Assembly: GCF_000711235.1 (NCBI RefSeq)
Contig: NZ_JOMI01000002.1
Location: forward strand, 124,001 to 188,000
Origin: Prevotella sp. 10(H)
GTDB lineage: Bacteria; Bacteroidota; Bacteroidia; Bacteroidales; Dysgonomonadaceae
Direction of reading: 5' to 3'
Length of the DNA stretch: 64,000 nucleotides
Below, piece after piece: positions 6,224-23,250 of this stretch (its first letter is position 1; each line of letters begins with the position of its first letter). The notes below the pieces were generated by a model. That model was not told the DNA's origin. It made no database searches and worked only from the letters and a program-made list of their open reading frames with translations. The position numbers and the translations under genes are program-made.

Positions 6224-9025
6224 ATGAAATTATTTCTTTTAGACGCCTACGCATTGATATACCGTTCATATTATGCGTTCATCAAAAGCCCCAGAGTCAA
6301 TTCAAAAGGTCAGAATACATCTGCTGTTTTCGGATTTGTAAATACACTTGAGGAACTTCTCCGCAAAGAGAATCCCACCCATATAGCCGTGGCTTTCGAC
6401 CCTCCCGGAGGCACATTTCGACATGAAGCCTACGAGCACTACAAAGCACAACGGTTGGAAACACCGGAAGATATAAAGGCTGCCGTTCCACTCATAAAGC
6501 AAATCATTGATGCTTACAATATAAAAGAGCTGGAAGTATCCCGCTACGAAGCAGATGATGTGATAGGGACAATAGCCAAACAGGCCGAAAAAGAAAACTT
6601 CGATGTCTATATGATGACCCCCGATAAGGATTACGGTCAGCTTACCAGCGATCATATCTTTATGTATAAGCCGAAGTTTGCAGGTACGGGATTCGATGTA
6701 CTCGATTCAAAGGCTATTATGGAGAAGTACGAATTGTCTTCACCTTGCCAGATGATAGATTTGCTCGGGCTGATGGGTGATGCCTCCGATAATATTCCGG
6801 GATGTCCCGGTGTAGGGCCTAAAACGGCACAAAAATTACTTCAGGAATACGGCACTATTGAAAACCTGCTTGAACATACATCCGATCTGAAAGGTACTTT
6901 AAAAATACGTTTGGAGGAAAATAAGGAGCAGATCATATTTTCTAAATTTCTGGCGACAATAAAGACAGATGTACCTATTCAGTTTAAAAAAGAAGAATAT
7001 AAACGGCAGGAAATAAATGCCGAGAAATTATCTGCCCTCTTCGAAGAATTGGAATTCAGGACACTGATCAACCGTGTATTGAAAAAAGACGGTACTCCTG
7101 CGAATCCGGTAAGAATAACAACTACTCACGAGGCTATACAGGGAGACTTGTTTGCCGAACTTTTACCTGCAGCAAGTACGCAGGAAATTGACGGGGATGT
7201 TAATTATTCGGGTTTGGTGCAATTGAAAGATATTCCGCATAACTATCACCTTGTGGATAAAGAAGATGAAATAGCGCAGCTGGCAAAAAAACTTGCAGAG
7301 CAAAAGTCCTGCTGCTTCGATACGGAGACTACTGGCCTCGACCCGAATGTGAGCGAACTGGTCGGTATATCTTTTGCATTTGAAGAAGGGGAAGCCTATT
7401 ATGTGCCTGTACCCGAAGATTTTGAAAGTACGAAAGCTATTGTGGAACAATTCCGTCCGTTCTTCGAGAATGAAGCAATTGAGAAGGTAGGGCAGAATAT
7501 CAAGTACGATATTATTGTTCTGAAAAAGTACGGTATAAATGTGCGTGGAAAGCTTTTCGATACAATGATCGCCCATTACCTTATCAATCCTGAGCTTCGG
7601 CATAATATGGATTATATGGCCGAAACATATCTTAAGTACAGGACTATCCATATCGATGAACTTATAGGGGCAAGAGGTAAGAACCAACTGAATATGCGTA
7701 GCCTTACTCCCGCGCAGATAAAAGATTATGCCTGTGAAGATGCCGACATAACCCTGAAACTGAAAGCTATATTGGAAAAAGCTATCGAAAAGCAGGATTT
7801 GAGCAAGTTGCTTTACGAAATAGAATTGCCGCTGATCTATGTACTTGCCGATATGGAATATACGGGAGTTAGCCTCGATAAAGCAGCATTGGGCGAATAT
7901 TCCAAAACGCTTACAAAGAATTTACAGGATATAGAATCGGAAATTTATACTGCTGCCGGACAGGAATTTAATGTGAACTCGGCTAAACAGGTCGGCGAAA
8001 TCCTCTTCGACAAACTAAAGATAGTAGAGAAACCCAAGAAGACAAAAACAGGGCAATATGTTACCAGTGAAGAAACACTGGAAAGCATCAGAGATACGCA
8101 TCCGATTGTAGGTAAGATACTGGAATACCGCGGTTTAAAGAAGCTATTAAGCACATATATCGATGCATTGCCATTGCTTTTAAGCCCGCTCGACGATAAA
8201 TTGCATACATCTTATAATCAGACGGTAACGGCTACGGGGCGCCTCAGTTCGAGCAACCCCAATCTGCAAAATATACCTATCCGCGATGCACAGGGTAAGG
8301 AGATCCGCAAGGCATTTATTGCCGATGAAGGATGTGTTTTCTTCTCGGCCGACTATTCGCAGATCGAACTCCGTATTATGGCGCATCTGAGTCAGGATCC
8401 TACAATGATCGAGGCCTTCAACAGCGGGGAAGACATCCATGCGGCTACTGCTGCCAAAATATATAAACTGCCTATAAATGAGGTTACAGGCGATATGCGC
8501 CGCAAGGCAAAGACTGCCAACTTCGGCATTATTTACGGAATTTCTGTCTTCGGGCTGGCTGAGCGTCTGACTATTCCGCGTGGAGAAGCGAAGGAACTTA
8601 TCGACGGCTATTTTGCCACTTATCCGAAAGTAAAAGAATATATGGATCAGAGTATTGCCGTAGCACGTACCAACAATTATGTGGAGACTGTTTTCGGGCG
8701 TAAACGCTACCTGCCGGATATTAATTCTCGGAATACAACCGTGCGGGGTTATGCCGAACGAAATGCGATTAACGCACCGATACAGGGGAGTGCTGCCGAT
8801 ATTATCAAAGTAGCGATGAATCGCATTTTTGACCGCTTCGACCGGGAGAATATCAGATCGAAAATGATTCTTCAGGTACATGATGAATTGAATTTCAATG
8901 TGCTGGAAAATGAACTTGAGAAAGTTCGCGAAATAGTAATAGAAGAAATGGAGAATGCATATAAATTAGCTGTACCTTTGCGCGCCGATTGCGGAAAAGG
9001 TAAGAACTGGCTGGAGGCACACTAG
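6224..9025 (+). CDS. polA: DNA polymerase I
   Basis: Repair and Okazaki-fragment-processing polymerase, 933 residues, with all three family domains. The 5'-3' exonuclease domain covers about 1-290 (acidic sites such as EADD 109-112 and the helix-hairpin-helix GCPGVGPKTAQ). The 3'-5' proofreading domain follows, with its ExoI motif intact (FDTETTG; Asp366 and Glu368), so proofreading is expected to be active. The polymerase domain carries motif A DYSQIELR (Asp710), motif B RRKAKTANFGIIYG and motif C QVHDE (Asp887). The ATG at 6224 gives the standard N-terminus MKLFLLDAYAL. The gene has no close partner upstream; the tail-fibre-like genes start 29 bases after its stop. Confidence 0.98.
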   Translation: MKLFLLDAYALIYRSYYAFIKSPRVNSKGQNTSAVFGFVNTLEELLRKENPTHIAVAFDPPGGTFRHEAYEHYKAQRLETPEDIKAAVPLIKQIIDAYNIKELEVSRYEADDVIGTIAKQAEKENFDVYMMTPDKDYGQLTSDHIFMYKPKFAGTGFDVLDSKAIMEKYELSSPCQMIDLLGLMGDASDNIPGCPGVGPKTAQKLLQEYGTIENLLEHTSDLKGTLKIRLEENKEQIIFSKFLATIKTDVPIQFKKEEYKRQEINAEKLSALFEELEFRTLINRVLKKDGTPANPVRITTTHEAIQGDLFAELLPAASTQEIDGDVNYSGLVQLKDIPHNYHLVDKEDEIAQLAKKLAEQKSCCFDTETTGLDPNVSELVGISFAFEEGEAYYVPVPEDFESTKAIVEQFRPFFENEAIEKVGQNIKYDIIVLKKYGINVRGKLFDTMIAHYLINPELRHNMDYMAETYLKYRTIHIDELIGARGKNQLNMRSLTPAQIKDYACEDADITLKLKAILEKAIEKQDLSKLLYEIELPLIYVLADMEYTGVSLDKAALGEYSKTLTKNLQDIESEIYTAAGQEFNVNSAKQVGEILFDKLKIVEKPKKTKTGQYVTSEETLESIRDTHPIVGKILEYRGLKKLLSTYIDALPLLLSPLDDKLHTSYNQTVTATGRLSSSNPNLQNIPIRDAQGKEIRKAFIADEGCVFFSADYSQIELRIMAHLSQDPTMIEAFNSGEDIHAATAAKIYKLPINEVTGDMRRKAKTANFGIIYGISVFGLAERLTIPRGEAKELIDGYFATYPKVKEYMDQSIAVARTNNYVETVFGRKRYLPDINSRNTTVRGYAERNAINAPIQGSAADIIKVAMNRIFDRFDRENIRSKMILQVHDELNFNVLENELEKVREIVIEEMENAYKLAVPLRADCGKGKNWLEAH

Positions 9026-9054
9026 ACAAATATATAATTAATTAAATTATTACT

Positions 9055-9750
9055 ATGAAAAAAATATTTTTACTTGTAGGGACACTGTTCCTGACAGGCT
9101 TATTGTCTGCACAGGATCAGGTGATTAATGGCAATCAAATATTTGTGGGAGATATAACAATAAGGTCGGAGCAGGTTCCTACACCTTTTGGAGAATGGGG
9201 TAAGAAGTTGCATTTTGGTATTGAGAATGGAGATGCGTTATATTTTTCTCGGGTTAATATCAGGAAGGATCATTCAGAGTTGAGGCTGGTATTAGGTGAC
9301 GATTCAACGGAAAAGTTTGCTATAGGTTACAAATATTATCTTGATGGTCTTTGGAAAGAAGGAATAGTTTTAAGGGCAAATGGATTTGTAGGAATTAAGG
9401 TTTCAGATCCTACTTGCGAATTGGATGTTAACGGGAGAATAAAATCTACAAATATAGATGTAACGGGCCTTATTCGCGCTAAAGAGGTAAAGATTCAGCT
9501 TCCTGCTGAGTGGGCGGATTTCGTTTTTGACAAAGACTATAACCTCCCCAGCCTTTCAGAAGTAGAAAAGCATATTAAGGAAAAACAACATCTGCCCGAT
9601 ATCCCATCAGAAAAAGAAGTAAAAGAGAACGGTATAGATTTAGGAGAGATGCAGGCAAAACTTCTTCAGAAGATAGAAGAGTTAACCTTATATGTCATTG
9701 AACAGGATAAGAAAATCAAAGATTTAGAGAACACACTCTCTGATAAATAA
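9055..9750 (+). CDS. Secreted tail-fibre-like protein, copy 1 of 3
   Basis: A 231-residue secreted protein. It has a signal peptide ending near LLSAQDQ, a variable beta-rich middle, a short ELDVNGRIKS element seen in phage-tail-like beta-helical repeats, and a C-terminal module of about 80 residues (from WADFVFDKDYNLPSL through LPDIPSEKEV to a coiled coil of the type LLQKIEELTLYVIEQ). The same C-terminal module ends the next two genes. Similar tails are widespread in Bacteroidota surface proteins; a trimerising or anchoring role is inference. No type IX secretion signal was recognised. It starts 29 bases after polA and six bases before copy 2. Confidence 0.75.
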   Translation: MKKIFLLVGTLFLTGLLSAQDQVINGNQIFVGDITIRSEQVPTPFGEWGKKLHFGIENGDALYFSRVNIRKDHSELRLVLGDDSTEKFAIGYKYYLDGLWKEGIVLRANGFVGIKVSDPTCELDVNGRIKSTNIDVTGLIRAKEVKIQLPAEWADFVFDKDYNLPSLSEVEKHIKEKQHLPDIPSEKEVKENGIDLGEMQAKLLQKIEELTLYVIEQDKKIKDLENTLSDK

Positions 9751-9756
9751 TACATT

Positions 9757-10401
9757 ATGAAAAAAAATATTGTTTTAATTATATTTTTTGTGAGAGGATT
9801 ATTATCCATGTTTGCACAGGATCAAGATATTAAAGGAAGTTTATATGTTGGGACAAATAGCACTGATTCGGATACTAAGATTGTATTAAGAGGCCCTAAT
9901 CATCCTAAAATGGAAGAGAGTAAAAGAGATATTTTATTTCAATACGCTTCAGCCGGTACCTCGGGGATCAGAGCTTTCAGAGGAGGGAGTTGGGGAAACT
10001 ATCTACAATTTCTTACAACCTCTGATTCCGGTCCTGACCTTAAAGTAAGAATGCATATCGATAAAACCGGAAAGATAGGCATTGGGACAACCAATCCCAC
10101 TAATTTGCTAGATGTTAATGGTACCATCCGCTCTAAAAAGGTACTAATAGAAGCAACAGGATGGTCCGATTTTGTTTTCGATAAAGATTATAAACTTCCG
10201 ACATTATCAGAAGTGGAAAAACATATCAAAGAAAAGCAACATCTGCCCGATATACCGTCTGAAAAAGAAGTAAAAGAAAACGGCATCGATCTGGGCGAGA
10301 TGCAGGCAAAGCTATTACAGAAGATTGAAGAATTGACTCTGTATGTTATAGAGCAGGATAAGCAAATAAAAGAACTGAAAGAACAACTAAATGAAAAATG
10401 A
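9757..10401 (+). CDS. Secreted tail-fibre-like protein, copy 2 of 3
   Basis: A 214-residue paralogue of the flanking genes. After the signal peptide (to about SMFAQ) the middle region is unrelated to the other copies except for GIGTTNP and LLDVNGTIRS. The last 75 residues (WSDFVFDKDYKLPTL through the coiled coil) match copies 1 and 3 closely in protein but use more divergent codons than copies 1 and 3 use between themselves. The stop codon lies five bases upstream of the preferred start of copy 3, so the three are probably one transcript. Confidence 0.75.
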   Translation: MKKNIVLIIFFVRGLLSMFAQDQDIKGSLYVGTNSTDSDTKIVLRGPNHPKMEESKRDILFQYASAGTSGIRAFRGGSWGNYLQFLTTSDSGPDLKVRMHIDKTGKIGIGTTNPTNLLDVNGTIRSKKVLIEATGWSDFVFDKDYKLPTLSEVEKHIKEKQHLPDIPSEKEVKENGIDLGEMQAKLLQKIEELTLYVIEQDKQIKELKEQLNEK

Positions 10402-10405
10402 TAAT

Positions 10406-11122
10406 ATGAAAAAGAGTATAATATACGTGTTTTCTTTTTTTATTGCATTAAATATTGCAGCGCAGGAACAAGTTATAGATGCAAATCTGAAAGTTACGGG
10501 CACCATATTAAGTCGTAGTGATATTTACGTAGGGGCGCATGTGGAACAGACCGGATTAGGTAATCGTATACATTTGAGGGGAACGGCTAGTAATACAGAT
10601 CAGCTATGGCTGGCAAAGTTTGTAAGAGGAACCGATTTGACAGATCTTCGTATAAATATTGGTGATTATTCTAATGGAGACAGGCTGGTCGTAGGAACAA
10701 CATATCCTTATTATTGGCGGGAGGCTTTTGTGGTTTCGGCATTAGATAACGGCAGAGTAGGTATAGGCGTGTCTTATCCGACATCTGCTCTCGATGTTAA
10801 CGGTGAGATAAGATGCAATGATCTTATTCGTGCTAAAGAAGTTAAAATTCAAATTCCTGATTGGTCGGATTTTGTCTTCGCCAAAGACTATAATCTCCCC
10901 AGCCTTTCAGAAGTAGAGAAACATATTAAAGAAAAACAACATCTGCCTGATATCCCATCAGAAAAAGAAGTAAAAGAAAATGGTATTGATCTAGGTCAGA
11001 TGCAGGCAAAGCTTTTGCAGAAGATAGAAGAGTTAACCTTATATGTCATTGAGTTGAAGAAAGAAAATGAATCGCAGAATAAACTGATAGAAGAGCTTCG
11101 TCAGGAAAAAACTATGCGGTAA
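10406..11122 (+). CDS. Secreted tail-fibre-like protein, copy 3 of 3
   Basis: A 238-residue paralogue with signal peptide, variable middle, a SALDVNGEIR element and the shared C-terminal module (WSDFVFAKDYNLPSL to a coiled coil ending QNKLIEELRQE). The ATG at 10406 is preferred over the one at 10391 because it begins the signal peptide MKKSIIYVFSFF and avoids overlap with copy 2. Over the conserved module its DNA is very close to copy 1, closer than to copy 2, which suggests gene conversion or a recent duplication. Function unknown; probably exported surface or periplasmic protein. Confidence 0.75.
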   Translation: MKKSIIYVFSFFIALNIAAQEQVIDANLKVTGTILSRSDIYVGAHVEQTGLGNRIHLRGTASNTDQLWLAKFVRGTDLTDLRINIGDYSNGDRLVVGTTYPYYWREAFVVSALDNGRVGIGVSYPTSALDVNGEIRCNDLIRAKEVKIQIPDWSDFVFAKDYNLPSLSEVEKHIKEKQHLPDIPSEKEVKENGIDLGQMQAKLLQKIEELTLYVIELKKENESQNKLIEELRQEKTMR

Positions 11123-11178
11123 ATCTTTCCTTTAGCTATAATTTGCTTGTATACAAGGCCTGAATAAATCTTTCTGAT

Positions 11179-11186
11179 TATCTTTG
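11179..11186 (+). promoter_or_regulatory. Promoter -7 box for the five-gene membrane array
   Basis: TATCTTTG, a TAnnTTTG match, lies 23 bases before the ATG at 11210. A 12-bp palindrome CTTGTATACAAG (11146-11157) is just upstream and could be an operator. No good -33 element is visible. Confidence 0.5.
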
Positions 11187-11209
11187 TTCCATGCATGCAT
11201 AGCTGACAG

Positions 11210-12919
11210 ATGGAACACTTTCAGAATAAGATACAACAAATTAAGAAAAACCAATACCTCATATTTTTAGGAGTTTTGGTTTTTCTTGCATTGTTTATGA
11301 TGTTCTGTTTCGGTTCGTCATCGTCTTATTCGGGCTTCGATTTCAATTTTCATTATAGGCGTCTTTTCACCCTTATAGATGCTTTGCAGCATGGAGTATA
11401 TCCCTCTTTCTATGTCGATTTTGCAAATGTGGACGGATACGGTTACTTCACTAAAGGCTTCTATTCCGATATTATTATGGTACCTTTCGCTGCGGTCGGT
11501 ATTTTCACAAGTGTCTACTTTGCCTACGACCTGATGATATTTACGATGACCGTTTTGTGCGGCGTATTTATGTATCATACGGTGAATGTGATTTATAAAA
11601 GCAGATATGCAGCTTCACTGAGTGCTGTACTTTATACCTTTGCCGTTTACCGTCTTTATGACATTTATCAACGGGGAGCATTGGGCGAAGCACTCTCTTT
11701 TACCTTTCTTCCTCTTGTTTTTCTGGGAGCGTATTATATTATTAAAGGTGATTACAAAAAGTGGTATGTGCTTGCAATAGGCTACAGCCTACTGATATAT
11801 ACGCATGTTATTGCATCGGTGTTAATGTTTGTCACCCTGTTGATACTGATGATTGTTTATAACCGTTCATTGGTAAAAGAGCCTAAACGCCTGCTATATC
11901 TTGTTCTTGCGGGATTAGTAACTATTTTGTTGACGGCTTACTACACATTCCCGATGCTGGAACAACTTTCATCCAATTCTTTTTATCTCGATACGCATAG
12001 CCCCGGGGGAGGGGCTGGCTATGGAAAAGTTGGACTCGATTATATCCTATGGGGATTTGTCAGTGGTATTGCATATCCCGAAAATCTGCTTTGGACAGGG
12101 ATTGGTATTATCCTCACTTTATTATTGTTTTTCCGTTTCTTTATCAAAGGAAAGGATAATCAGAAATTGAAGAGTGTCGATATAGTTGTCATTATCGGAA
12201 TCTGTTTTATTATAGCTACTTCCCATATTTTTCCGTGGGGAAAATTTCCTTTCAATTTATTGTCTTTCATTCAGTATCCGTGGCGTTTGTATGAATTCGT
12301 AACATTTTTCTTCGCCGTGGCGGGTGCTTATTATATTTCGTTATTGTTTGTCAGCAATAGGCAACGCATTTGTATGGCAATAATAGTCGTTTTGGCTACA
12401 ATGGCTACTGTGTATATCCATAGTGAAAACTATAAATCACTGGATTCATCGGTAAATTTGCCGGAAGAAGAAAGGCTACAGGCCGTCCTTCCGACTTACG
12501 AAAACGGTTACAATCTCATAGGCAGAGAATATTTGCCGTCTAAACTGGTGGATATATATTATGTACATACCCGGGGAGAAAAAGTAGAAAGTAAAAATGA
12601 AGATACCCGTATCTCGGATTTAAGGCGTGACTATAACGCCACTGTATTCAATGTTTCGCTGGATAAACCGGATACACTAGCCCTGCCACTTGTGTATTAT
12701 TATGGGTACTCGGCTGTTATGGATGGTGAAAAACTACCTGTAAACCAGAATGATATGGGTCTTGTGAATGTAGTTGCTGATAAGTCGGGTGAAATAAAAG
12801 CATGGTATGCCGGTACAACAGTTCAGAAGGCAAGCCTGTATATATCTGTAATAAGTATATTATCTTTGTGCCTGTATGTAACTTTATCAATCAGGAGAAA
12901 AAAGAATGAACAGCCTTAA
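11210..12919 (+). CDS. Polytopic membrane protein, PTPS-related/YfhO-like (array copy 1)
   Basis: A 569-residue inner-membrane protein with about a dozen hydrophobic segments, first of five tandem paralogues. The first external loop holds GFDFNFHYRRL (Asp44), then DGYGYFTKGFYSD and IFTMTVLCGVFMY; later come WGKFPF, IQYPWRLYEF and a soluble C-terminal beta domain ending before a last membrane helix. This layout fits the PTPS-related membrane domain and YfhO-like proteins of the GT-C glycosyltransferase type, where an acidic residue in the first loop is catalytic. Sugar transfer from a lipid donor is therefore inference, not shown. The gene overlaps copy 2 by 14 bases. Confidence 0.7.
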   Translation: MEHFQNKIQQIKKNQYLIFLGVLVFLALFMMFCFGSSSSYSGFDFNFHYRRLFTLIDALQHGVYPSFYVDFANVDGYGYFTKGFYSDIIMVPFAAVGIFTSVYFAYDLMIFTMTVLCGVFMYHTVNVIYKSRYAASLSAVLYTFAVYRLYDIYQRGALGEALSFTFLPLVFLGAYYIIKGDYKKWYVLAIGYSLLIYTHVIASVLMFVTLLILMIVYNRSLVKEPKRLLYLVLAGLVTILLTAYYTFPMLEQLSSNSFYLDTHSPGGGAGYGKVGLDYILWGFVSGIAYPENLLWTGIGIILTLLLFFRFFIKGKDNQKLKSVDIVVIIGICFIIATSHIFPWGKFPFNLLSFIQYPWRLYEFVTFFFAVAGAYYISLLFVSNRQRICMAIIVVLATMATVYIHSENYKSLDSSVNLPEEERLQAVLPTYENGYNLIGREYLPSKLVDIYYVHTRGEKVESKNEDTRISDLRRDYNATVFNVSLDKPDTLALPLVYYYGYSAVMDGEKLPVNQNDMGLVNVVADKSGEIKAWYAGTTVQKASLYISVISILSLCLYVTLSIRRKKNEQP

Positions 12920-14594
12920 TACCATTCTCGATAAGATAGCTTCGAATAAGCGGAGTCATTTTTGGCTTTTCTTTATTGTGTTGCTATTCCTTTCTTTTAT
13001 AATGGTTCACCTCTATCAGCCTTTATGCCCGGGGCAGGATTTCTTTTTTCACTACAGGCGCCTGCAGGCATTAATGGACGGGATGAAGGAAAGCCCGTTA
13101 CTGATTTATCTCGATTATAATGCTATCGACGGCTACGGCTATTTTACAAAAGCTTTTTATCCCGATTTTGTCCTGATACCTTTTGCTTTCATCGGTAATC
13201 TCACCAGCATCAGTTTTGCCTATCAGTTTATGATATTTACCATGACCGTTTTGTGCGGGGTGTTTACATATATCACGGTGAATATAATATACAGGAAATC
13301 CTTTGCTGCGGCAATAGCGGCATTACTGTATACATTCTGTGTATACCGGCTTCTCGATCTTTATCACAGGGCGGCATTGGGCGAAACATTGACTTTTACA
13401 TTTATTCCCCTTGTCTTTCTCGGGTTGTATCACATAATAAAAGGCGATTATAGAAAATGGTATATTTTGGCGGTTGGATTCAGCCTTATGATTTTTACCC
13501 ACCTGATATCATCGGTACTGATGTTCCTTACATTGGTAATATTCCTTATAATCTATTATAAGCCTTTGAAAAAAGAGCCTAAGCGCTTGCTCTATCTTCT
13601 TGTAGCAGGAATTGCCACACTAATAATAACCGCTTATTATATATTCCCGATGTTGGAACAAATGTCGTCAGGTACTTTCTATTATGAAAGCAGAAACCTG
13701 ATGGCAAAGACGCAAGATTCAGCCCTTGATTTTCACTGGCTTATCTGGGGCATGTTTTCGGGTATTGTGGAACCCGGACAAGCTTTTATTCCGGGAGTCG
13801 GCTTTATGCTTACCGGAGTAGTTGCGCTGAGGCTGTTTGTATATGAGCGGTCGGAAGGGTTAAAAAGTGTAGATATAGCTGTTGTTATCGGTTTGTTTTT
13901 TATCTTTGCGTCATCTCCGTTGTTCCCTTGGTCGGTTTTCCCGTTCAATAAACTGAATTTTATACAAATGGCATGGAGATTATTCGAATTCTCGAGTTTC
14001 TTTTTTGCCGTTGCCGGAGGATATTATTTATCCCTGATACTGAAAACGAGAGGGCGTCGTCTCACTATAATTTTTATAATATCTGTTATGCAAATTTTTG
14101 TGTTGGTGAGCGATGCCCAATCGTACAGGAAATACCGCTGTGGCCGTCCGGTAACACAAATTGCAACTTTCACTAACGATTATCATTTGGGCGGAATGGA
14201 ATATCTTCCGTCGAAAGTTCCTTCCCTTGAATATTTACACCAGCGTGGAGATAATATAACGGTTACGGCATCCGGAACAGCAAGTAATCAGGTTCGCGAG
14301 AATAGAAAGTTATCTTTCGACATATTCATAAATAGAAGCCAATCAGTCGAATTACCATTAATCTATTACAAAGGATACACAGCTAAACTAAATGATAAAT
14401 CACTGATTGTTGATGAAAGCGATAACGGCCTCGTCCAAATAACTGCCGATGAATCGGGGCATATAGAAGTATACTACGGAGGAACTTCTATACAGAAAGT
14501 AAGCTATTTTATAACCCTTGCCGCTATTTTTGCATTTTGTATTTATATATTTTTGCAAAGAAGACAACAAAGAAAGATTAACACAAACATATAA
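12906..14594 (+). CDS. Polytopic membrane protein, PTPS-related/YfhO-like (array copy 2)
   Basis: A 562-residue paralogue. It keeps the first-loop motif GQDFFFHYRRL (Asp45), GYGYFTKAFYPDF, IFTMTVLCGVFTY, ALGETLTFTFIPLVFLG and AWRLFEF near the C-terminal membrane bundle. The soluble tail contains LPLIYYKGYTA and GGTSIQKVSYF, as in the other copies. It starts inside the end of copy 1 and its stop is followed directly by the ATG of copy 3, so translation is probably coupled. Likely a GT-C-like envelope enzyme; substrate unknown. Confidence 0.7.
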   Translation: MNSLNTILDKIASNKRSHFWLFFIVLLFLSFIMVHLYQPLCPGQDFFFHYRRLQALMDGMKESPLLIYLDYNAIDGYGYFTKAFYPDFVLIPFAFIGNLTSISFAYQFMIFTMTVLCGVFTYITVNIIYRKSFAAAIAALLYTFCVYRLLDLYHRAALGETLTFTFIPLVFLGLYHIIKGDYRKWYILAVGFSLMIFTHLISSVLMFLTLVIFLIIYYKPLKKEPKRLLYLLVAGIATLIITAYYIFPMLEQMSSGTFYYESRNLMAKTQDSALDFHWLIWGMFSGIVEPGQAFIPGVGFMLTGVVALRLFVYERSEGLKSVDIAVVIGLFFIFASSPLFPWSVFPFNKLNFIQMAWRLFEFSSFFFAVAGGYYLSLILKTRGRRLTIIFIISVMQIFVLVSDAQSYRKYRCGRPVTQIATFTNDYHLGGMEYLPSKVPSLEYLHQRGDNITVTASGTASNQVRENRKLSFDIFINRSQSVELPLIYYKGYTAKLNDKSLIVDESDNGLVQITADESGHIEVYYGGTSIQKVSYFITLAAIFAFCIYIFLQRRQQRKINTNI

Positions 14595-16286
14595 ATGAAT
14601 CTCTTAAGAATAATAACAGATAGAATAGCCTTCAACAGGAAAAGCCATTTCTGGATATTCTTTTTTGTGCTGATCCTTCTTTCATTGGCGATGACTTACC
14701 TTTATCTGCCTTTCATTCCGGGTCACGATTCTTATTTTCATTTCAGAAGATTACAAGCATTAATGGATAGTATCGGGGAAAGCCCGTTTCTTATTTATAT
14801 GGATTACACGGCGATAGAGGGTTACGGCTACTTTACTAAAGGATTCTATCCCGACTTCGTACTCATACCGTTTGCCATAATAGGCAAAATTACCAATCTG
14901 GACTTTGCCTATCATTTTATGATATTTACTATGACGGTTCTCTGCGGTGTATTTACTTATATTGCTGTTAACCGTATGTATAAAAGTACATATGCAGCAT
15001 CGGTTTCAGCTATATTATACACTTTTGCGCTCTACCGTCTGCTCGACCTTTTTCACCGGGGAGCATTGGGTGAAGCCGTTTCCTTTACCTTCGTACCTTT
15101 GGCCATACTGGGCATTTATGAGATAATAAAAGGCAATTATAAAAAATGGTATATACTTACCATTGCTTTCAGCTTATTGATTTTCAATCATGCGCTATCA
15201 TCATTACTAATGTTTATTACGATTATAATACTCGTATTGGTTTATTATAAATCGATCCTGAATGAGCCTAAACGGATACTATATTTGGTTATCTCCGGAA
15301 TCATAACAATCCCTATAGTCAGCTATGCCATATTTCCGATGATGGAACAGCTGGCATCCAACTCGTTCTATTATGAGATCAATCCTCTGACTTCGGTAAC
15401 GGAAAACACTCTGGCTGCATCGGTTATCATTCCCGGTATGTTTATGGGTATTATTTATCCTATGCGAACATTCGCTCCGGCGATAGGACTGCTGCTTACC
15501 TGCGGAATATTTTTGAGATTGTTTGTTTATGGTAAATCACCGCGGTTGAGGAGTGTAGATATAGGCGTAATTATTGGATTGATATATGTCTGTGCATCTT
15601 CTTACTGGTTCCCATGGACGATTTTTCCATTCAATAAGCTGGGAATTATTCAAATACCTTGGCGACTGTATGAGTTTTCATCTTATTTCTTTGCCGTTGC
15701 CGGAGGATATTATCTGGCTTTGTTGCTAAAATCGAGCCTGCGCAAGTTTGTTGCCGGAGGATTTCTTGTCATCTGTACCTTATTGGTATTGGCCAACGAT
15801 GCTAAATTATATCACGATGTGAGGATTACGGCCGGAATAGAACGGGAGGCCAGCCTTGAGAACCTCTATCATCTGATAGGCCTCGAGTATCTTCCTGTAA
15901 AAGTACCTTCGGTAGGATATCTCGTGGAAAGAGGGGATTCGATAAAAAGTAATAAAGGAGAAGTAAACATCAGCAACTTCCAAAGGGATAAAGGAACACT
16001 GACTTTTAAGATAGAACAAACGGCAGATGCAGAACTCGAACTGCCGCTTATCTACTATAAGGGATATACCGCAAAACTCGATGGAACCGACTTATCAGTT
16101 TCCGAAAGTGACGACGGACTGGTACAGATTTATGCTGATAAGCCGGGCGAAGTAAAAGTATATTACGGAGGAACATTTACACAGAAAGCAAGTTGGATTG
16201 TTACATTAATCAGCATTGTTGCCCTGTGTGTCTATATATTTCTGTTTAAAAGAAAGAGTAAAACCGGATTGAGAGAGAATGAATAG
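14595..16286 (+). CDS. Polytopic membrane protein, PTPS-related/YfhO-like (array copy 3)
   Basis: A 563-residue paralogue, closest by eye to copy 2 (shared N-terminus with SHFW and the PG[HQ]D loop). Conserved sites: GHDSYFHFRRL (Asp45), GYGYFTKGFYPDF, IFTMTVLCGVFTY, ALGEAVSFTFVPL, PWRLYEFSSYFFAVAGGYY and LPLIYYKGYTAKLDG. The ATG follows the stop of copy 2 without a gap and the end overlaps copy 4 by eight bases. Confidence 0.7.
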   Translation: MNLLRIITDRIAFNRKSHFWIFFFVLILLSLAMTYLYLPFIPGHDSYFHFRRLQALMDSIGESPFLIYMDYTAIEGYGYFTKGFYPDFVLIPFAIIGKITNLDFAYHFMIFTMTVLCGVFTYIAVNRMYKSTYAASVSAILYTFALYRLLDLFHRGALGEAVSFTFVPLAILGIYEIIKGNYKKWYILTIAFSLLIFNHALSSLLMFITIIILVLVYYKSILNEPKRILYLVISGIITIPIVSYAIFPMMEQLASNSFYYEINPLTSVTENTLAASVIIPGMFMGIIYPMRTFAPAIGLLLTCGIFLRLFVYGKSPRLRSVDIGVIIGLIYVCASSYWFPWTIFPFNKLGIIQIPWRLYEFSSYFFAVAGGYYLALLLKSSLRKFVAGGFLVICTLLVLANDAKLYHDVRITAGIEREASLENLYHLIGLEYLPVKVPSVGYLVERGDSIKSNKGEVNISNFQRDKGTLTFKIEQTADAELELPLIYYKGYTAKLDGTDLSVSESDDGLVQIYADKPGEVKVYYGGTFTQKASWIVTLISIVALCVYIFLFKRKSKTGLRENE

Positions 16287-17964
16287 TGTAGCCGGAATAG
16301 AGAGGAATAATAAACGGGATTACCTTATCTTCCTGTTTATATTATTCGCCTTATCGCTGTTTATGGTGTGCTGGCTCGGGCCGGTATCGACCTATGCAGG
16401 GCACGACTATTTTTTTAATATACGGCGGTTCGATGTGCTTATTCACGCGTTGAAATCGGGAAATTATCCCATTTATATAGATTATTCCGCACTGGAAGGC
16501 TACGGCTATTTCACCAAAGGATTTTACCCCGACCTCGTTATTCTGCCTTTTGCCGTACCGGGCATTATTATCGGCACGGTTGCGGCATATAACGTGATGA
16601 TATTTACGATGACATTCCTCTGCGGATTGTTTATGTATAAGGCGGTCAATACGGTTTTCATGAATACGTTTGTAGCTTCTGTCTCTGCCATACTGTATAC
16701 GTTTTCGGCCTATCATCTTTTCGACTGGTACAACAGGGCGGCGCTCGGCGAATCGCTTTCGTTTACTTTCCTGCCGGTTATCTTTTTAGGGGCTTATCAT
16801 ATTATCAAAGGAGATTACCGTAAATGGTATCTGCTGACAATCGGGTATAGCCTGCTGATTTACACTCACCTGTTATCTTCGTTTCTTGCCTTTGTTTCAT
16901 TGGCGCTGGTCTTCATTCTCAGTTATAAACCGTTGATGAAGGAGCCGAAACGCATTGCTTTTCTTCTCCTTGCCGCCATTGTGACTATACCGCTTACAGG
17001 CAGCTATATATTTACACTACTCGAACAAATGGATAGCAATACTTTCTACTATAGTATCAAAGAAAATATAACCGGACAAACCAAACTCGGACTTGCAGAC
17101 CTCGGCTGGGGTGCACTCAGCGGTATTATGTATCCGAAGACGGAAAATATGGCAGGCATAGGTCCTTTGCTTATCATTTTCGTTATCCTGCGCTTGTTTA
17201 TAAAAGAAAAAACCGCAGCGTTGAAAATAGCAGATTTCTGCCTTTTTACCGGAGTAATCCTGCTTATTATTGCATCGGCTGTTTTTCCGTGGGGGCGGTT
17301 GCCGTTGGGATTTATACAATTCCCGTGGCGGCTGTATGAGTTTATTATCTTCTTTATGGCTGTCAGCGGCGCTTATTATCTTTCGCTTCTGCTGAAAACA
17401 AGGAAGCAGCAATATATTGCGGGAGCGTTTATAATTGCTTTCACATGTGTAGTTTTTGTTGTCAATAACAATAATTACAAATACTGGCAGACGCTAGCAA
17501 AAAGCGAGGCTCCACACTGGTTTACGGGAGTTGCTTCTGTGGATAACGAATACTATCTTGGCGGGCTCGAATATCTTCCCGTAAAAGTACCTTCGCATAA
17601 TTATATTCACGAAAGAGGAGACAGTATCGGAACCGGTAATGCCGATACGCGGCTTTCTAATTTTTCCCGTAAGAAAGGCACTACTAAAGTAAATGTAATG
17701 ACCGAGACAACCGATAAAATCGAACTTCCACTCATATATTACAAAGGCTACAAGGCCTATCTGAATGATGAAGAACTGGCCGTATCGGAAAGCGCTAACG
17801 GTCTGATAGAAGTTTCAGTCGGTAAATCGGGGCAAATCCGTGCTTATTATTCATGGACAACCGTGCAGCAATATAGCTGGTATCTGTCTATCATTACTGC
17901 TATCGGTGTGATTATATATATCTTTGTATCGGAAAGAAGAAGGAGGAAATCGCATGCCGGATAA
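16279..17964 (+). CDS. Polytopic membrane protein, PTPS-related/YfhO-like (array copy 4)
   Basis: A 561-residue paralogue. The first-loop motif is GHDYFFNIRRF: Asp43 is kept but the His found in the other four copies is replaced by Asn. Other conserved sites are GYGYFTKGFYPDL, IFTMTFLCGLFMY, ALGESLSFTFLP, FPWRLYEF and LPLIYYKGYKAYL. It overlaps copy 3 at its start and copy 5 at its end. The His-to-Asn change, if that His is functional, would make this the most divergent member in activity. Confidence 0.7.
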   Translation: MNSVAGIERNNKRDYLIFLFILFALSLFMVCWLGPVSTYAGHDYFFNIRRFDVLIHALKSGNYPIYIDYSALEGYGYFTKGFYPDLVILPFAVPGIIIGTVAAYNVMIFTMTFLCGLFMYKAVNTVFMNTFVASVSAILYTFSAYHLFDWYNRAALGESLSFTFLPVIFLGAYHIIKGDYRKWYLLTIGYSLLIYTHLLSSFLAFVSLALVFILSYKPLMKEPKRIAFLLLAAIVTIPLTGSYIFTLLEQMDSNTFYYSIKENITGQTKLGLADLGWGALSGIMYPKTENMAGIGPLLIIFVILRLFIKEKTAALKIADFCLFTGVILLIIASAVFPWGRLPLGFIQFPWRLYEFIIFFMAVSGAYYLSLLLKTRKQQYIAGAFIIAFTCVVFVVNNNNYKYWQTLAKSEAPHWFTGVASVDNEYYLGGLEYLPVKVPSHNYIHERGDSIGTGNADTRLSNFSRKKGTTKVNVMTETTDKIELPLIYYKGYKAYLNDEELAVSESANGLIEVSVGKSGQIRAYYSWTTVQQYSWYLSIITAIGVIIYIFVSERRRRKSHAG

Positions 17965-19633
17965 TCTGATAAATAGGATAACAGAAAATAAAAGATATCA
18001 CTTCCGGATATTTTTTGCGGTGTTGGTTCTTCTGGCCGTTTATATGATATTGGTTTTCGGCCCTGCATACAATCATCCCGGTTACGACTACTATTTTCAT
18101 CTGAAACGGTTCGAAGCCATGATAACTGCCATGCAGGAAGGCACTTTCCCGTTTTATATCGATTATGCTGCCGCTTTGAAATATGGTTACCTCAGCCGCG
18201 TGTTCTATTCGGATGTGATATTTCTGCCCTTTGCTGCTTTAGGTACCCTTATCGGTTCATACGAAGCCTACGAAGTGATGCTGTTTACGATGACTGTTCT
18301 TTGCGGCGTGTTTATGTATATTGCAGTTGATAAAATCTATAAAAGTTCATATGCTGCCTTTCTCGCAGGGATCTTATATACTTTTTCGGTCTACCGTTTT
18401 TATGATATTTACAATCGCGGTGCATTGGGTGAAGTCTTTGCTTTTACATTTATCCCGATTGTTTTTCTCGGCTTGTACTATATAATTAAAGGCGATTACA
18501 GAAAATGGTATATTATCGCTGCCGGATTCAGCCTGTTGATATTTTCACATGTCATATCCACAGTACTTACATTTATTTCGGTTGTTATCATCCTGATTTT
18601 CTACTGTAAATCAATGATTAAAGAGCCAAAGAGGATTTATTACCTCCTACTTGCCGGAGTGGTTACCCTGCTTATTACGGCAGCCTTTATTTTTCCGTTA
18701 TTGGAACAGATGCAGGCGAACCATTACCGATATGAAACAAATGACTGGACATTGCCTGCCAATGCTAAAATACCACTCGATTATGTATTTTGGGGATTAA
18801 TCAGCGGATTTTATTATCCGAAAGATATTTCAATTGTCGGAATCGGTATTCAGCTGACATCGGTTATCCTGCTCAGAATCTTTGTAAAAGATAAGTCTGC
18901 TGCTCTGAAAAGCGTGGATATCGGCCTTTTAATCGGAATATTCTACATTTTTGCTTCCTCAAAGTTATTTCCATGGGGGCGTTTCCCGTTCACCTTATTA
19001 TCTTTTATCCAATATCCGGGGCGGCTCTATTTGCTGGTGACTTTCTTTTTTGCCGTCGGCGGGGGCTATTATCTTTCTAAAATCGTAACAAAGCAGAAAA
19101 CAAGGCTTATTGTTGCGGCATTTGTTATTATCTGTACGGGAACAGTCATATATATGCACAACCAGAATTTCAGATTGCTGCATGTCCATATCGGGCAAAC
19201 CAATAAAGAACCCAACCCCAGTAACTTTTTTTACCTCAACGGTGCCGAATATGTACCCGACAGGATAGAATCCGCTTATCATATACTATTCAGAGGAGAT
19301 ACGATTGTCAGCATAGACGGAAAAGCGAAAGCAGAGAACCAACAAAGGGAGAAAAGTGTTTTAAATATCAACGTAAATACGCAAGATGCCGATTCGTTGG
19401 AACTTCCGCTTTTCTATTACAAAGGATATACGGCAGAAATAGATAACGAAACATTGCCTGTAAGGCAGAGTAAAAACGGGTTGGTGCAGATTCCGGTCGA
19501 TAAATCCGAAGATGTGAAAGTATATTATAAGGGTACAATTATTCAAAAAGTGAGTTACTGTATTTCCATTCTCGCTATATTTGCGTTGTGTATTTATATC
19601 ATTATTCAAAGAAAGAGAACATCTAAAACATAA
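17954..19633 (+). CDS. Polytopic membrane protein, PTPS-related/YfhO-like (array copy 5)
   Basis: A 559-residue paralogue from the ATG at 17954. That start follows AGGAGG (17941-17946) by seven bases and overlaps copy 4 by 11 bases; an upstream frame start at 17924 would overlap by 41 and is less likely. Conserved sites: GYDYYFHLKRF (Asp45), YGYLSRVFYSDV (here Thr-Lys of the other copies is changed to Ser-Arg), LFTMTVLCGVFMY, ALGEVFAFTFIP, YPGRLYLL (Gly replaces Trp) and LPLFYYKGYTAEID. It is the most divergent copy at these motifs, but still a full-length protein. Confidence 0.7.
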   Translation: MPDNLINRITENKRYHFRIFFAVLVLLAVYMILVFGPAYNHPGYDYYFHLKRFEAMITAMQEGTFPFYIDYAAALKYGYLSRVFYSDVIFLPFAALGTLIGSYEAYEVMLFTMTVLCGVFMYIAVDKIYKSSYAAFLAGILYTFSVYRFYDIYNRGALGEVFAFTFIPIVFLGLYYIIKGDYRKWYIIAAGFSLLIFSHVISTVLTFISVVIILIFYCKSMIKEPKRIYYLLLAGVVTLLITAAFIFPLLEQMQANHYRYETNDWTLPANAKIPLDYVFWGLISGFYYPKDISIVGIGIQLTSVILLRIFVKDKSAALKSVDIGLLIGIFYIFASSKLFPWGRFPFTLLSFIQYPGRLYLLVTFFFAVGGGYYLSKIVTKQKTRLIVAAFVIICTGTVIYMHNQNFRLLHVHIGQTNKEPNPSNFFYLNGAEYVPDRIESAYHILFRGDTIVSIDGKAKAENQQREKSVLNINVNTQDADSLELPLFYYKGYTAEIDNETLPVRQSKNGLVQIPVDKSEDVKVYYKGTIIQKVSYCISILAIFALCIYIIIQRKRTSKT

Positions 19634-19637
19634 CGGT

Positions 19638-19847
19638 ATGCTTTATTCTAACTGGGATTTTATTTATCCTGTTTTCATGCTTATTTTCGGTATTGTCATG
19701 ATACTCAGTCCGCGGACATTTATGCGCAAGGCTAAGTATGACGAAGATAGCGTAAAAGCCGAATCGTGGGTTAAGAAAGCAGGGATAGGTCTTGCTATCA
19801 TGGCGCCGCTACTGGCCTTTTTTATATATTATAAGATGAATATGTAA
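19638..19847 (+). CDS. Small membrane protein, unknown
   Basis: A 69-residue protein with two hydrophobic helices separated by a charged, basic loop (SPRTFMRKAKYDEDSVKAESW). The ATG at 19638 is preferred to 19581, which would run back into the end of the membrane array. It lies four bases after array copy 5, and its stop codon abuts the start of the YqaA-like gene, so it is probably co-transcribed with both. No family recognised. Confidence 0.65.
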   Translation: MLYSNWDFIYPVFMLIFGIVMILSPRTFMRKAKYDEDSVKAESWVKKAGIGLAIMAPLLAFFIYYKMNM

Positions 19848-20906
19848 ATGCTTGACGGCTTTGTCGAATATGGCTATATAGGCCTTTTTATTGCGTCATT
19901 TCTTGCGGCGACTATTCTTCCTTTCGGTTCTGAGTTTGTCTTTGCCGGACTGCTGGCAATGGGTCTGAATGCATGGGGCTGCGTCATTGTGGCTTCGGTA
20001 GGCAACTGGCTGGGCGGCATGACCAACTATTTTCTCGGACGCCTTGGTAAAGTAGAATGGATAGAAAAATACCTGAAAGTCGACAGAGGCAAGATTGATA
20101 AGATGCAGAAATGGCTGGAAGGGAAGGGGGCGATTATGGCCTTTTTCAGTTTTATGCCTATAGTGGGAGATATTATAGCATTGGCGCTCGGTTTTATGCG
20201 GGCGAATGTATATATCGTAAATATTGCGATGTTTGCGGGAAAACTGTTGCGTTATGTATTGATAATGTACGGTGTAGGTTGGATATTCTTATCACCGCAT
20301 TCTGTGCCGGATAAAGATAAACAAAGTTCTGATATCGAGTGGAAAAAAGAGTTGCAAGGTGATTTCTCTTTTACCGAAGAATGGAGTTATCCCGAAAATA
20401 TCTTTAAAAATGAATACGGGCAACTCGTATGTGACGGATTCTGTGAACCCGAACTTGATAAAATGCGCGATGAAAGCGGGAAAATTATAGATGATTCCAT
20501 TACCCGCTATTATCAGTTGGTAGATACAACTCATTATCATCATACCATTAGTAGCGAAGCAAAAAGTTATGAATGGATTGGAACGGATTTTGCAGATGCA
20601 TATGAGGCGGATAATGATACAATAAAATGTAAGACAAGATGTGGCGTGGCCACTCATTCCAGCTTGCAATTATCCATAATAGGTGATATGTGCATTCCGC
20701 AGATTGAGTTGAATAGTGTCAGTATGTCAGGTGTACAACATTTTAAATATAAAAGCGGATCTATAAAGATAGATAAGCCGCTTTTTGAGAAAGGTATTCT
20801 AAAAGCCGAATTCGATTATACATTCGATGATCCCACCGATCCGAAAAACCCTTTGTGGTGGAAAGGTAGGATTTATACAACGATAAAAGAAAAGGAAAAT
20901 ATATAA
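19848..20906 (+). CDS. YqaA/VTT-domain membrane protein fused to a soluble domain of unknown function
   Basis: Residues 1-150 are a YqaA-like VTT (SNARE-associated, DedA-superfamily) membrane domain: LPFGSEFVFAGLL, GNWLGGMTNYFLGRLG, and the re-entrant segment SFMPIVGDIIALALGF. DedA-type proteins are lipid scramblases or flippase-like transporters. Residues from about 155 to 352 form a soluble domain with several Cys and His (CDGFCEPELDKM, DTTHYHH, CKTRCGVATH) that I do not recognise. Normal YqaA proteins stop near 150-190 residues, so this is a fusion. It starts directly after the 69-residue membrane gene and ends two bases before the radical SAM gene. Confidence 0.8.
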   Translation: MLDGFVEYGYIGLFIASFLAATILPFGSEFVFAGLLAMGLNAWGCVIVASVGNWLGGMTNYFLGRLGKVEWIEKYLKVDRGKIDKMQKWLEGKGAIMAFFSFMPIVGDIIALALGFMRANVYIVNIAMFAGKLLRYVLIMYGVGWIFLSPHSVPDKDKQSSDIEWKKELQGDFSFTEEWSYPENIFKNEYGQLVCDGFCEPELDKMRDESGKIIDDSITRYYQLVDTTHYHHTISSEAKSYEWIGTDFADAYEADNDTIKCKTRCGVATHSSLQLSIIGDMCIPQIELNSVSMSGVQHFKYKSGSIKIDKPLFEKGILKAEFDYTFDDPTDPKNPLWWKGRIYTTIKEKENI

Positions 20907-20908
20907 TT

Positions 20909-21688
20909 ATGTCGACTATATTATTTCACGAAATAGTTTTCGGGCCGCTTCATAGCCGTCGTCTGGGTGCATCATTAGGAATTAACCTTCTGCCTTATGA
21001 CGGTAAACTTTGCTCGTTCGACTGTATTTATTGTGAATGTGGTTATAATAAGGATTTCAGAACGAAGACAAAATTACCCGACCGCGACAATGTACGTGCA
21101 GCTTTAGAAGATAAGCTGATACAGCTGCAACAGGAGGGTACAAATATTGATGTCATTACCTTTGCCGGAAATGGTGAACCGACGATGCATCCGCAGTTTG
21201 CTGAAATAATAGACGATACAATTGCATTGCGTGATATTTATTTCCCTGCGGCTAAGATCAGTGTATTGTCCAATGCGATGCATTTAGGTAAGCAAAAGGT
21301 ATTCGATGCATTGAAGAAAGTAGATAATAATATATTGAAACTGGATTCTGCCATTCTGGATACCGTGAAGCTAATCGATCGTCCGAATTCACCGGGTTAT
21401 AGCATCGACAAGCAACTAGAGCTTTTCAAACTTTTCAATGGCGATTTCATTATGCAGACCATGTTCGTAAAAGGCAGCCACAACGGCAGGATAGTGGATA
21501 ATACGACCGAAGAAGAAATATCGGCATGGCTCGAAGCTGTAAAGGAAACGCGCCCGAAAGAGGTAATGATATATACTATCGACCGTGAAACGCCGGAAAA
21601 GAATCTTGAAAAAGTTTCTGTTGAAAAACTCAGGGAGATAGGCAAGAGAGTAGAGGAGCTCGGAATAAAAGTAAATATAGCAGGATAA
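20909..21688 (+). CDS. Radical SAM protein, COG0731-like
   Basis: A 259-residue radical SAM enzyme. The 4Fe-4S motif is CSFDCIYC (Cys35, Cys39, Cys42; CX3CX2C), preceded by the family opening FGPLHSRRLGASLGINLLPY, and the glycine-rich SAM-binding strand FAGNGEPTMHP follows. The opening is typical of the COG0731 group, which is related to wyosine-type tRNA enzymes, but bacterial members have unproven reactions. Two bases separate it from the YqaA-like gene. A symmetrical terminator ends it. Confidence 0.85.
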   Translation: MSTILFHEIVFGPLHSRRLGASLGINLLPYDGKLCSFDCIYCECGYNKDFRTKTKLPDRDNVRAALEDKLIQLQQEGTNIDVITFAGNGEPTMHPQFAEIIDDTIALRDIYFPAAKISVLSNAMHLGKQKVFDALKKVDNNILKLDSAILDTVKLIDRPNSPGYSIDKQLELFKLFNGDFIMQTMFVKGSHNGRIVDNTTEEEISAWLEAVKETRPKEVMIYTIDRETPEKNLEKVSVEKLREIGKRVEELGIKVNIAG

Positions 21689-21690
21689 AA

Positions 21691-21717
21691 AAACGGCTTC
21701 AGTTATTGAAGCCGTTT
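21691..21717. terminator. Bidirectional terminator between convergent genes
   Basis: An 11-bp perfect stem, AAACGGCTTCA (21691-21701) with TGAAGCCGTTT (21707-21717), and a five-base loop. A-runs on one side and T-runs on the other serve the radical SAM gene (+) and the TlpA-like gene (-). Confidence 0.9.
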
Positions 21718-21726
21718 CTGTTTGTA

Positions 21727-23250
21727 TTATTTCTGTTCCCTGATAAACTTATCGAATTTGGAATGCTCGCCGCTCCTTAATATCGCCGACGGCCTTTCGC
21801 ATTTCGCGTCCACTATCTTTCCTTCCTTATCTATGAGTACATACTGAGGAATACCCTGCACATTATAGGCTTTGCATACCGGATTCTTTTCCCAGCCTTC
21901 CGCCATAAGGTTTACACCTTCCAGTTTATAGTCGTTTATCAGTTTTCTCCATTGCTCGTCACTTCCGTCTACGCATACATAAACATATGTGATATCATAG
22001 TCTTTATATTTTTCATGGAACTTATCCTTAAAGTTTTTGAACTCATGGATACACGGGCCGCACCATGGCGCCCAAAAATCCATATATACGACTTTGCCTC
22101 TCAAGTCAGCCAGCCGCACCGTTTTCCCCTCTGTATCTATCAGTTCGAAGTCAGGGGCAGGCTTACCCGGCTGTAATTTGGCGGCAGCCTGATAACGTTC
22201 TTCAACAATATCCAGATAATCCTTATTCCGGCATATCTTTTTGAATTCATCATATACAAAACAAGCCTCGTCAAAACTGAAATAGGTGAATGCAGAGTTA
22301 AGCAGATCGGCAATATACCAGTCGCGTATAGCCGGAACCTTAAGAGAGGCCATAGCAAAATAGTAGCCGTCTTTTGCAGGTGTAAAGTCTTCAAATTTTT
22401 CCTCTTCATCGGAACTGGCAGTATAGGAGAATCTTACTTTAGACCCGTTCATATAAGAGGAGATAAAGTTCCGGTAATCGCTGCTGCTTCTGAACATGTC
22501 GTAGTTCAGTTCGCTATACGGCAGAATCGGTGTTTTTTTTACATTGCCGTCATCTTCCGTTTTTTCATTATAACCTATCGGATAATTACAGTGTACTTCC
22601 GATATCAATTTCATCCTATAGCAAATAGTGCTTGCAGCCTTGTAGTAAGCCTCATCCCTAAATTTTTTAATTAGCTTAAGGCTGCCGTTCTCCTTTTCAT
22701 ACGAATCTACAGTATTTATTAAAGCGTCATAGTAATCATTAATTTTTTTCAGCATCTCGTCATCTGAGATAGTCCGGTCATAACCCAGACCACTAGTTTC
22801 AAGAAAAGCCTTGCGGTGTTGCCTGAAAATGAGCATCGACAAATCCAGTTCTTTTTGTCTTTCTGCATTTTTACCCTTTAGTACTACCGATTCTTTTGGG
22901 TTATTAGCATCGAAAGTTACTTCGATAGTATCTCCCGGATAAGAAAATATTGTAATGGCATCGCCCAGATAGAGGTAAATGTCCTGAATATCCTGTATAG
23001 GAAATGATTCCATAAAGCTGCCGTCATCGGCTACATTTACCCTGTGTCCTTTGTTTGTGATGTAATCTGTAATGGCCATTTCCCAGTAATTCATTTTTTC
23101 GGGCTTGTTCAGCGCTTTACCTTTTATAACTACATGGCCTTTACCATAGTGAACTTTGAAAGGATTTTCTGTATCCGCAGGCGTTTGTGAAAAAAGCATG
23201 GATGAACAGAGAAATAAAACAACAATAGTGAAGTTTCTCATAAGAGGCAT
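21727..23250 (-). CDS. TlpA-family thioredoxin-like protein, large secreted form
   Basis: A 507-residue secreted protein. A signal peptide (to about FSQT) precedes a long N-terminal region of about 330 residues, with an early beta-rich part and a later helical part, and a C-terminal AhpC/TSA-thioredoxin domain (about 360-507) with WCGPC (Cys397, Cys400) and the cis-proline strand GIPQYVLID. Likely a periplasmic thiol-disulfide reductase, a group abundant in Bacteroidales. The ATG at 23250 is used; an in-frame ATG at 23241 (MRNFTIVV) is an equally good signal-peptide start. The promoter box at 23280-23287 suits both. The gene is divergent from the flavodoxin-fold gene. Confidence 0.85.
   Translation of the reverse strand: MPLMRNFTIVVLFLCSSMLFSQTPADTENPFKVHYGKGHVVIKGKALNKPEKMNYWEMAITDYITNKGHRVNVADDGSFMESFPIQDIQDIYLYLGDAITIFSYPGDTIEVTFDANNPKESVVLKGKNAERQKELDLSMLIFRQHRKAFLETSGLGYDRTISDDEMLKKINDYYDALINTVDSYEKENGSLKLIKKFRDEAYYKAASTICYRMKLISEVHCNYPIGYNEKTEDDGNVKKTPILPYSELNYDMFRSSSDYRNFISSYMNGSKVRFSYTASSDEEEKFEDFTPAKDGYYFAMASLKVPAIRDWYIADLLNSAFTYFSFDEACFVYDEFKKICRNKDYLDIVEERYQAAAKLQPGKPAPDFELIDTEGKTVRLADLRGKVVYMDFWAPWCGPCIHEFKNFKDKFHEKYKDYDITYVYVCVDGSDEQWRKLINDYKLEGVNLMAEGWEKNPVCKAYNVQGIPQYVLIDKEGKIVDAKCERPSAILRSGEHSKFDKFIREQK

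Follow-up and report, generated by a model that had tools for sequence, protein, structure and literature searches.

The DNA analysed here (the window) is a 64,000-nucleotide stretch, and its host is a gut bacterium of the genus Dysgonomonas. It contains an array of five genes encoding homologous polytopic membrane proteins, listed in Table 1 together with a promoter-like element in front of them. The genes are tightly packed: going from copy 1 to copy 5, the junctions are a 14-nucleotide overlap, an exact abutment, an 8-nucleotide overlap and an 11-nucleotide overlap. The start of copy 5 is taken as the ATG at 17954; the mechanically called reading frame opens at a TTG at 17924. A previous sequence-only reading had described five full-length paralogues of 559–569 residues, overlapping or without gaps, and their coordinates and lengths are correct. 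Copy 1 is 45–47% identical to copies 2–5, and the host genome (4.3 Mb, 99.97% complete) holds no further family matches besides these five. Two of the motifs reported as common to all copies, G-x-D-x-x-F in the first loop and FTMT, do occur in all five. The other two were overstated by one copy each: GYGY is found in copies 1–4 and reads KYGY in copy 5, and RLY, at the PWRLY site, reads RLF in copy 2. The run of five contains no other glycan gene, as had been observed.

Table 1. Coordinates of the GT-C array and its upstream element within the window.
Feature	Position	Strand	Remarks
20-nt promoter-like element AAATCTTTCTGATTATCTTT	11166..11185	+	sole match in the genome at ≤2 mismatches
GT-C copy 1	11210..12919	+	orthogroup A, 569 aa
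GT-C copy 2	12906..14594	+	orthogroup B, 562 aa; PF10131 above curated cut-off; structure modelled
GT-C copy 3	14595..16286	+	563 aa; younger duplicate in B group, common to G003 and L008
GT-C copy 4	16279..17964	+	orthogroup C, 561 aa
GT-C copy 5	17954..19633	+	orthogroup D, 559 aa; structure modelled

The structures of copies 2 and 5 were predicted using AlphaFold2, and both models are confident (pLDDT 90.9 and pTM 0.92 for copy 2; pLDDT 88.9 and pTM 0.90 for copy 5). Nearly all the high-ranking structural matches of both are GT-C proteins, with Z values of up to 24.7; all 50 matches listed for copy 2 are GT-C or GT-C-like, as are those listed for copy 5 down to Z 8.3. VIA-align places Stt3 at the top for both models (Z 21.1 over 361 residues at 4.2 Å for copy 2; Z 24.7 over 365 residues at 4.1 Å for copy 5), and Pmt4, ArnT (Z 16.8 and 19.9 for copies 2 and 5 respectively) and PglB rank after it. 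The longest alignment is to AftD (Z 18.9 and 22.6, 477–485 residues), which also covers the last helix and the C-terminal β domain; this domain, proposed earlier, is present in both models. Searches of the PDB with two profiles gave no sequence matches, and a viral structure library gave no meaningful match.

The proteins have about 12 transmembrane helices, within the 8–13 of the GT-C class, and the invariant Asp in the first extracytoplasmic loop that goes with it. Eleven residues do not vary among 58 homologues: D45, R52, Y77, Y79, R155, E160, H199, E251, Q252, R358 and E432. The content of Lys plus Arg is 32% in the predicted cytosolic loops versus 8% in the extracytoplasmic segments, which places D45, R155, E160, H199, E251, R358 and E432 at the outer face, the layout expected for a periplasmic enzyme that uses a polyprenyl-linked sugar. 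The equivalence of D45 to the catalytic Asp of Stt3 and ArnT is based on topology and on the profile alignment to PF10131 described below, the structural aligner reporting ranges only. Fold and topology are thus strongly predicted, and the five proteins are almost certainly membrane enzymes of the GT-C class, which glycosylates molecules at the outer side of the inner membrane. The sequence-only reading, which had suggested this fold and an Asp facing away from the cytosol, is borne out for both modelled copies and, by topology, for D45.

Searched singly, the copies give weak Pfam matches. Copy 2 matches PF10131 (PTPS_related) at 28.4 bits against a cut-off of 26.4, copy 3 falls below the cut-off, and copies 1, 4 and 5 have no match. 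YfhO (PF09586) is matched below threshold by copies 2 and 3 and not at all by copies 1, 4 and 5. At E < 0.01, YfhO is matched by 30 of the 58 homologues and PF10131 by 17; neither the homologues nor the five copies have a Pfam match to PMT_2. The profile of the 58 homologues was also compared, using hhalign, with three clear PF10131 proteins of the same phylum, giving 99.7% and E 1.9e-25 over 508 columns, a single comparison of shallow profiles that is strong but not calibrated. In this alignment D45 (G-x-D-x-x-F) matches the Asp of G-Y-D-G-F-H, and the pair R155/E160 (Y-x-R-x4-E), R358 (the Arg before helix 10) and the motif E-Y-x-P are also aligned, so that the homology is full-length and includes shared conserved residues. 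The corresponding comparison with YfhO from Bacteroidia was weaker (79%, 119 columns). The kinship with PF10131, a GT-C clan family, and with YfhO that had been put forward for checking is therefore supported. From these profiles, we assign the array proteins to a divergent branch of PF10131, with strong homologues only in Dysgonomonadaceae.

Members of PF10131 (clan CL0111) share with the array the 508-column match, the loop-1 motif G-x-D-x-x-(F/H), Y-x-R-x4-E and E-Y-x-P, but the array is a divergent tandem branch confined to Dysgonomonadaceae, of which copies 1, 3, 4 and 5 lie below the Pfam cut-off. The literature yielded no member of PF10131 with a known or assigned reaction. YfhO, of the CsbB-GtcA-YfhO system of teichoic acid glycosylation, belongs to the same superfamily and has both a C-terminal β domain between the last helices and an extracytoplasmic active site. 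However, it is around 860 residues long rather than around 560, it works with a CsbB-like partner that the array operon lacks, and it acts on teichoic acids, which the Gram-negative array host does not have. Proteins of the ArnT/GtlB/PMT_2 type share the GT-C fold and an Asp in the first extracytoplasmic loop, but in a motif that differs from G-x-D-x-x-F; both Asp residues of the D-x-x-D motif of GtlB are needed (PMC5836110). The arabinofuranosyltransferase AftD resembles the array proteins over the greatest length, including the β domain and last helix, but it is mycobacterial, more than twice as long, carries carbohydrate-binding modules, and is only about 10–12% identical. We note that the host genome also encodes a true YfhO of 862 residues beside a GT2 gene (L064, C3:348831-351416). 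Of 60 Bacteroidia genomes sampled, 59 have a YfhO of this kind, on whose role in Bacteroidia we found no literature.

The family is present in 17 of 18 good genomes of the same genus, and the number of array genes ranges from 1 to 7 between species. Of 396 genomes sampled from the class, only the two from Dysgonomonas gave strong matches. Homologues also occur in other genera of Dysgonomonadaceae, in a patchy manner, with presence and absence within a single genus. In phylogenetic trees, copies 1, 4 and 5 fall into orthogroups A, C and D respectively, all three supported by an SH-aLRT of 100%, and copy 2 and the younger copy 3 belong to a B group. The order A-B-C-D is found in 11 arrays, and none with a different order was seen; the only copy in D. 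mossii and in sp. 521 is of the B group. The array occurs at the same place in most relatives, which is far beyond chance; conservation of the array in relatives, raised earlier as a check, is thereby confirmed. Values of dN/dS are 0.11–0.13 for A, B, C and D (L020 versus L138; dS 0.56–0.80), dS for copy 3 being saturated in the available pair, and each of the four orthogroups is therefore under purifying selection. Taking orthogroups, fixed order and purifying selection together, we conclude that the array is not a random expansion, and that at least four of its five genes are, as judged from the comparison across the genus, kept as distinct ordered genes. This conservation fits specialised roles. 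Some copies in relatives are split or contain stops (L010 at 13331-15045; G007, G010, G011, G020 and G021), which indicates that some extra copies are decaying and that some can be dispensed with. Dysgonomonas-type GT-C genes also occur in metagenome bins that bear the label Prevotella or Flavobacteriaceae (L013, L014, L017, L018, L022 and L026), so that these labels are probably wrong.

Only 17 positions are specific to an orthogroup. Most are in, or on helices close to, loops 1, 2, 3 and 5, and those that separate the orthogroups cluster around loops 1 and 3 and the outer ends of helices; group-specific positions include 53, 57, 197–203, 355 and 361, and the last of these, Glu361, is Leu throughout orthogroup D. 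This pattern fits differing choices of donor or acceptor by enzymes that share a catalytic scaffold. Evolution is about twice as fast in the C-terminal domain (dN 0.25–0.30) as in the membrane domain (dN 0.11–0.15), which could reflect contact with an acceptor or, equally, weaker constraint.

The array adjoins polA in all Dysgonomonas loci that extend far enough to show it. Genera of Dysgonomonadaceae that lack the array keep the arrangement polyprenyl synthase-polA-VTT, mostly with a radical SAM gene next. The simplest account is therefore that the array entered a polA-VTT-radical SAM locus older than itself, which makes its neighbours no guide to its function. In particular, the VTT/DedA gene starting at 19848 follows the array in nearly all Dysgonomonas, and we considered a link through it to the recycling of Und-P; yet polA-VTT or polA-VTT-radical SAM is kept in relatives without GT-C genes, and the adjacency is therefore not evidence for such a link. 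From its short single-domain form in relatives, the VTT protein seems to be of the COG1238/YqaA type, and flipping of Und-P by that subfamily has been judged unlikely (PMC10127716). In the window the VTT/DedA-type protein (19848-20906) is fused in frame to a domain of around 190 residues, which in L012 and other relatives has a gene of its own. Between it and copy 5 is a two-helix membrane protein of 69 residues (19638-19844), and L013 has a homologue in the corresponding position. Between polA and the array (9055-11122) are three secreted proteins in tandem, whose coiled-coil C-termini are nearly identical and which have no Pfam match. A similar protein is found at the locus in G003 (L138), but because they are missing from the locus in most relatives we rejected them as substrates or partners of the array. 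Nor did dispersed GT-C copies in relatives point to a partner, their neighbours being housekeeping or unrelated genes (RuvA, DUF4139, DUF7000, transposase-type HTH). No defence system was matched by PADLOC, and no RNA element by Rfam at 8900-22000.

The element AAATCTTTCTGATTATCTTT together with the G that follows it reads TATCTTTG, which fits the Bacteroidota -7 box TAnnTTTG. The exact sequence occurs in 6 of 101 family genomes, once in each and always just before the first GT-C gene, which belongs to group A or group B. The non-coding sequence around it has no more than 8 nucleotides in common between species. Copies with one mismatch in L184 and L196 precede a gene that starts ATGTG(T/C)GG and looks like glmS, and we therefore read the element as an unusually conserved promoter or operator. 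It suggests that in species with the element the array forms a transcription unit of its own; in L020 and other species, the first GT-C gene begins around 20–30 nucleotides after polA, with no such element. A classical TTTG-N-TAnnTTTG promoter was looked for and is not there, matches to it across the window being near chance.

We consider it probable that the array proteins are inner-membrane GT-C transferases of PF10131 type with a periplasmic active site, specialised from one another, that decorate a surface glycan. Each copy would most likely take one sugar from a polyprenyl-phosphate-sugar, with D45 as base or metal ligand and the conserved Arg, His and Glu residues holding the donor, and attach it to a glycan or glycoconjugate of the cell surface that is put together at the periplasmic face. 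Binding of the acceptor is probably aided by the β domain, which lies between the last two helices. Orthogroups A, B, C and D would differ in donor, acceptor or position, copy 3 being a younger duplicate of B, and the synthesis and flipping of the donor lipids would fall to enzymes encoded elsewhere. Catalytic activity, the kind of donor, the acceptor, a division of labour, and any stepwise or combinatorial working such as the sequence-only reading had proposed are all features that we infer; there is genetic evidence for the relatives YfhO and GtlB (PMC5836110, PMC8035078).

Against this reading, neither a donor-making GT-A enzyme nor a GtrA flippase is encoded in the array or its neighbourhood, and the GT-A/GT-C linkage of a three-component system is likewise absent at the conserved locus. 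That a single copy exceeds the Pfam cut-off, that no PF10131 relative with an assigned reaction was found, and that relatives have broken copies weigh on the same side. A GtrA-type flippase is available in the genome, which has two clear GtrA genes; neither is linked to the array, the first lying next to a PMT_2 protein and the second among CDP-alcohol transferase/PAP2 genes. Systems of the CsbB-GtcA-YfhO type are the precedent, and in L. lactis three GT-A/GT-C pairs share a single GtrA flippase (PMC8035078). A more ambitious version, in which A-B-C-D form a self-contained periplasmic assembly line, is possible but rather doubtful; here four dedicated polyprenyl-phosphate-sugar transferases, expressed together from one conserved promoter element and supplied by a shared flippase, would each contribute a defined sugar to one branched decoration of a Dysgonomonas surface glycan. 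A search of an open library for tandem GT-C paralogues or Dysgonomonas envelope glycans gave nothing relevant.

Several other explanations have to be weighed. The array might be a locus of antigenic or phage-receptor diversification, in which enzymes that decorate a surface glycan change in copy number and acceptor domain under pressure from phage or host; the set would then matter for variability and not as a fixed pathway. The variation of copy number between species through gains and losses, along with truncated copies and in-frame stops, the faster C-terminal domain, and the patchiness of the family even within one genus are as such a locus would have them; we nevertheless think it unlikely, given a gene order stable in 11 arrays, purifying selection on each orthogroup, a 20-nucleotide element that is conserved rather than variable, and no invertible promoter or recombinase noticed at the array. 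That the copies all perform the same reaction, as a redundant or dosage expansion, is improbable. Copies of that sort would be expected to stay alike or to decay, but four orthogroups with around 45% mutual identity have been kept apart, with group-specific residues such as the Leu in place of Glu361, even though all copies have the same active-site residues, copy 3 arose recently by duplication within group B, and two species manage with one group-B copy.

The rank of Stt3 in both structural searches raises the further idea of oligosaccharyltransferases that transfer a lipid-linked oligosaccharide onto proteins, as Stt3 and PglB do. We regard this as very improbable: rank among GT-C proteins is a poor guide to reaction, with AftD, Pmt4 and ArnT close behind; the layout of the β domain and last helix is like that of YfhO/PTPS, and the longest alignment is with AftD; and general O-glycosylation has been described for several species of Bacteroidota (PMC10897501), whereas the array family is nearly confined to Dysgonomonadaceae. 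Finally, a shared fold is no proof of activity, since PIG-U has the GT-C fold and is inactive (PMC7801869), and the array proteins could in principle be scaffolds or binders of lipid-sugars. This is barely credible for proteins in which the loop-1 Asp and at least 10 other polar residues are invariant across 58 homologues, several of them aligning with PF10131.

The array is a natural experiment on GT-C specificity: four anciently separated members, kept in order, have the same scaffold and catalytic residues, and the differences between groups amount to a short list of positions, many of them near the outer face. Surface glycans can be compared directly between D. mossii, which has one copy, and species with the full set. 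More generally, the array argues for seeking GT-C arrays that have no linked donor synthase in other Gram-negative bacteria.
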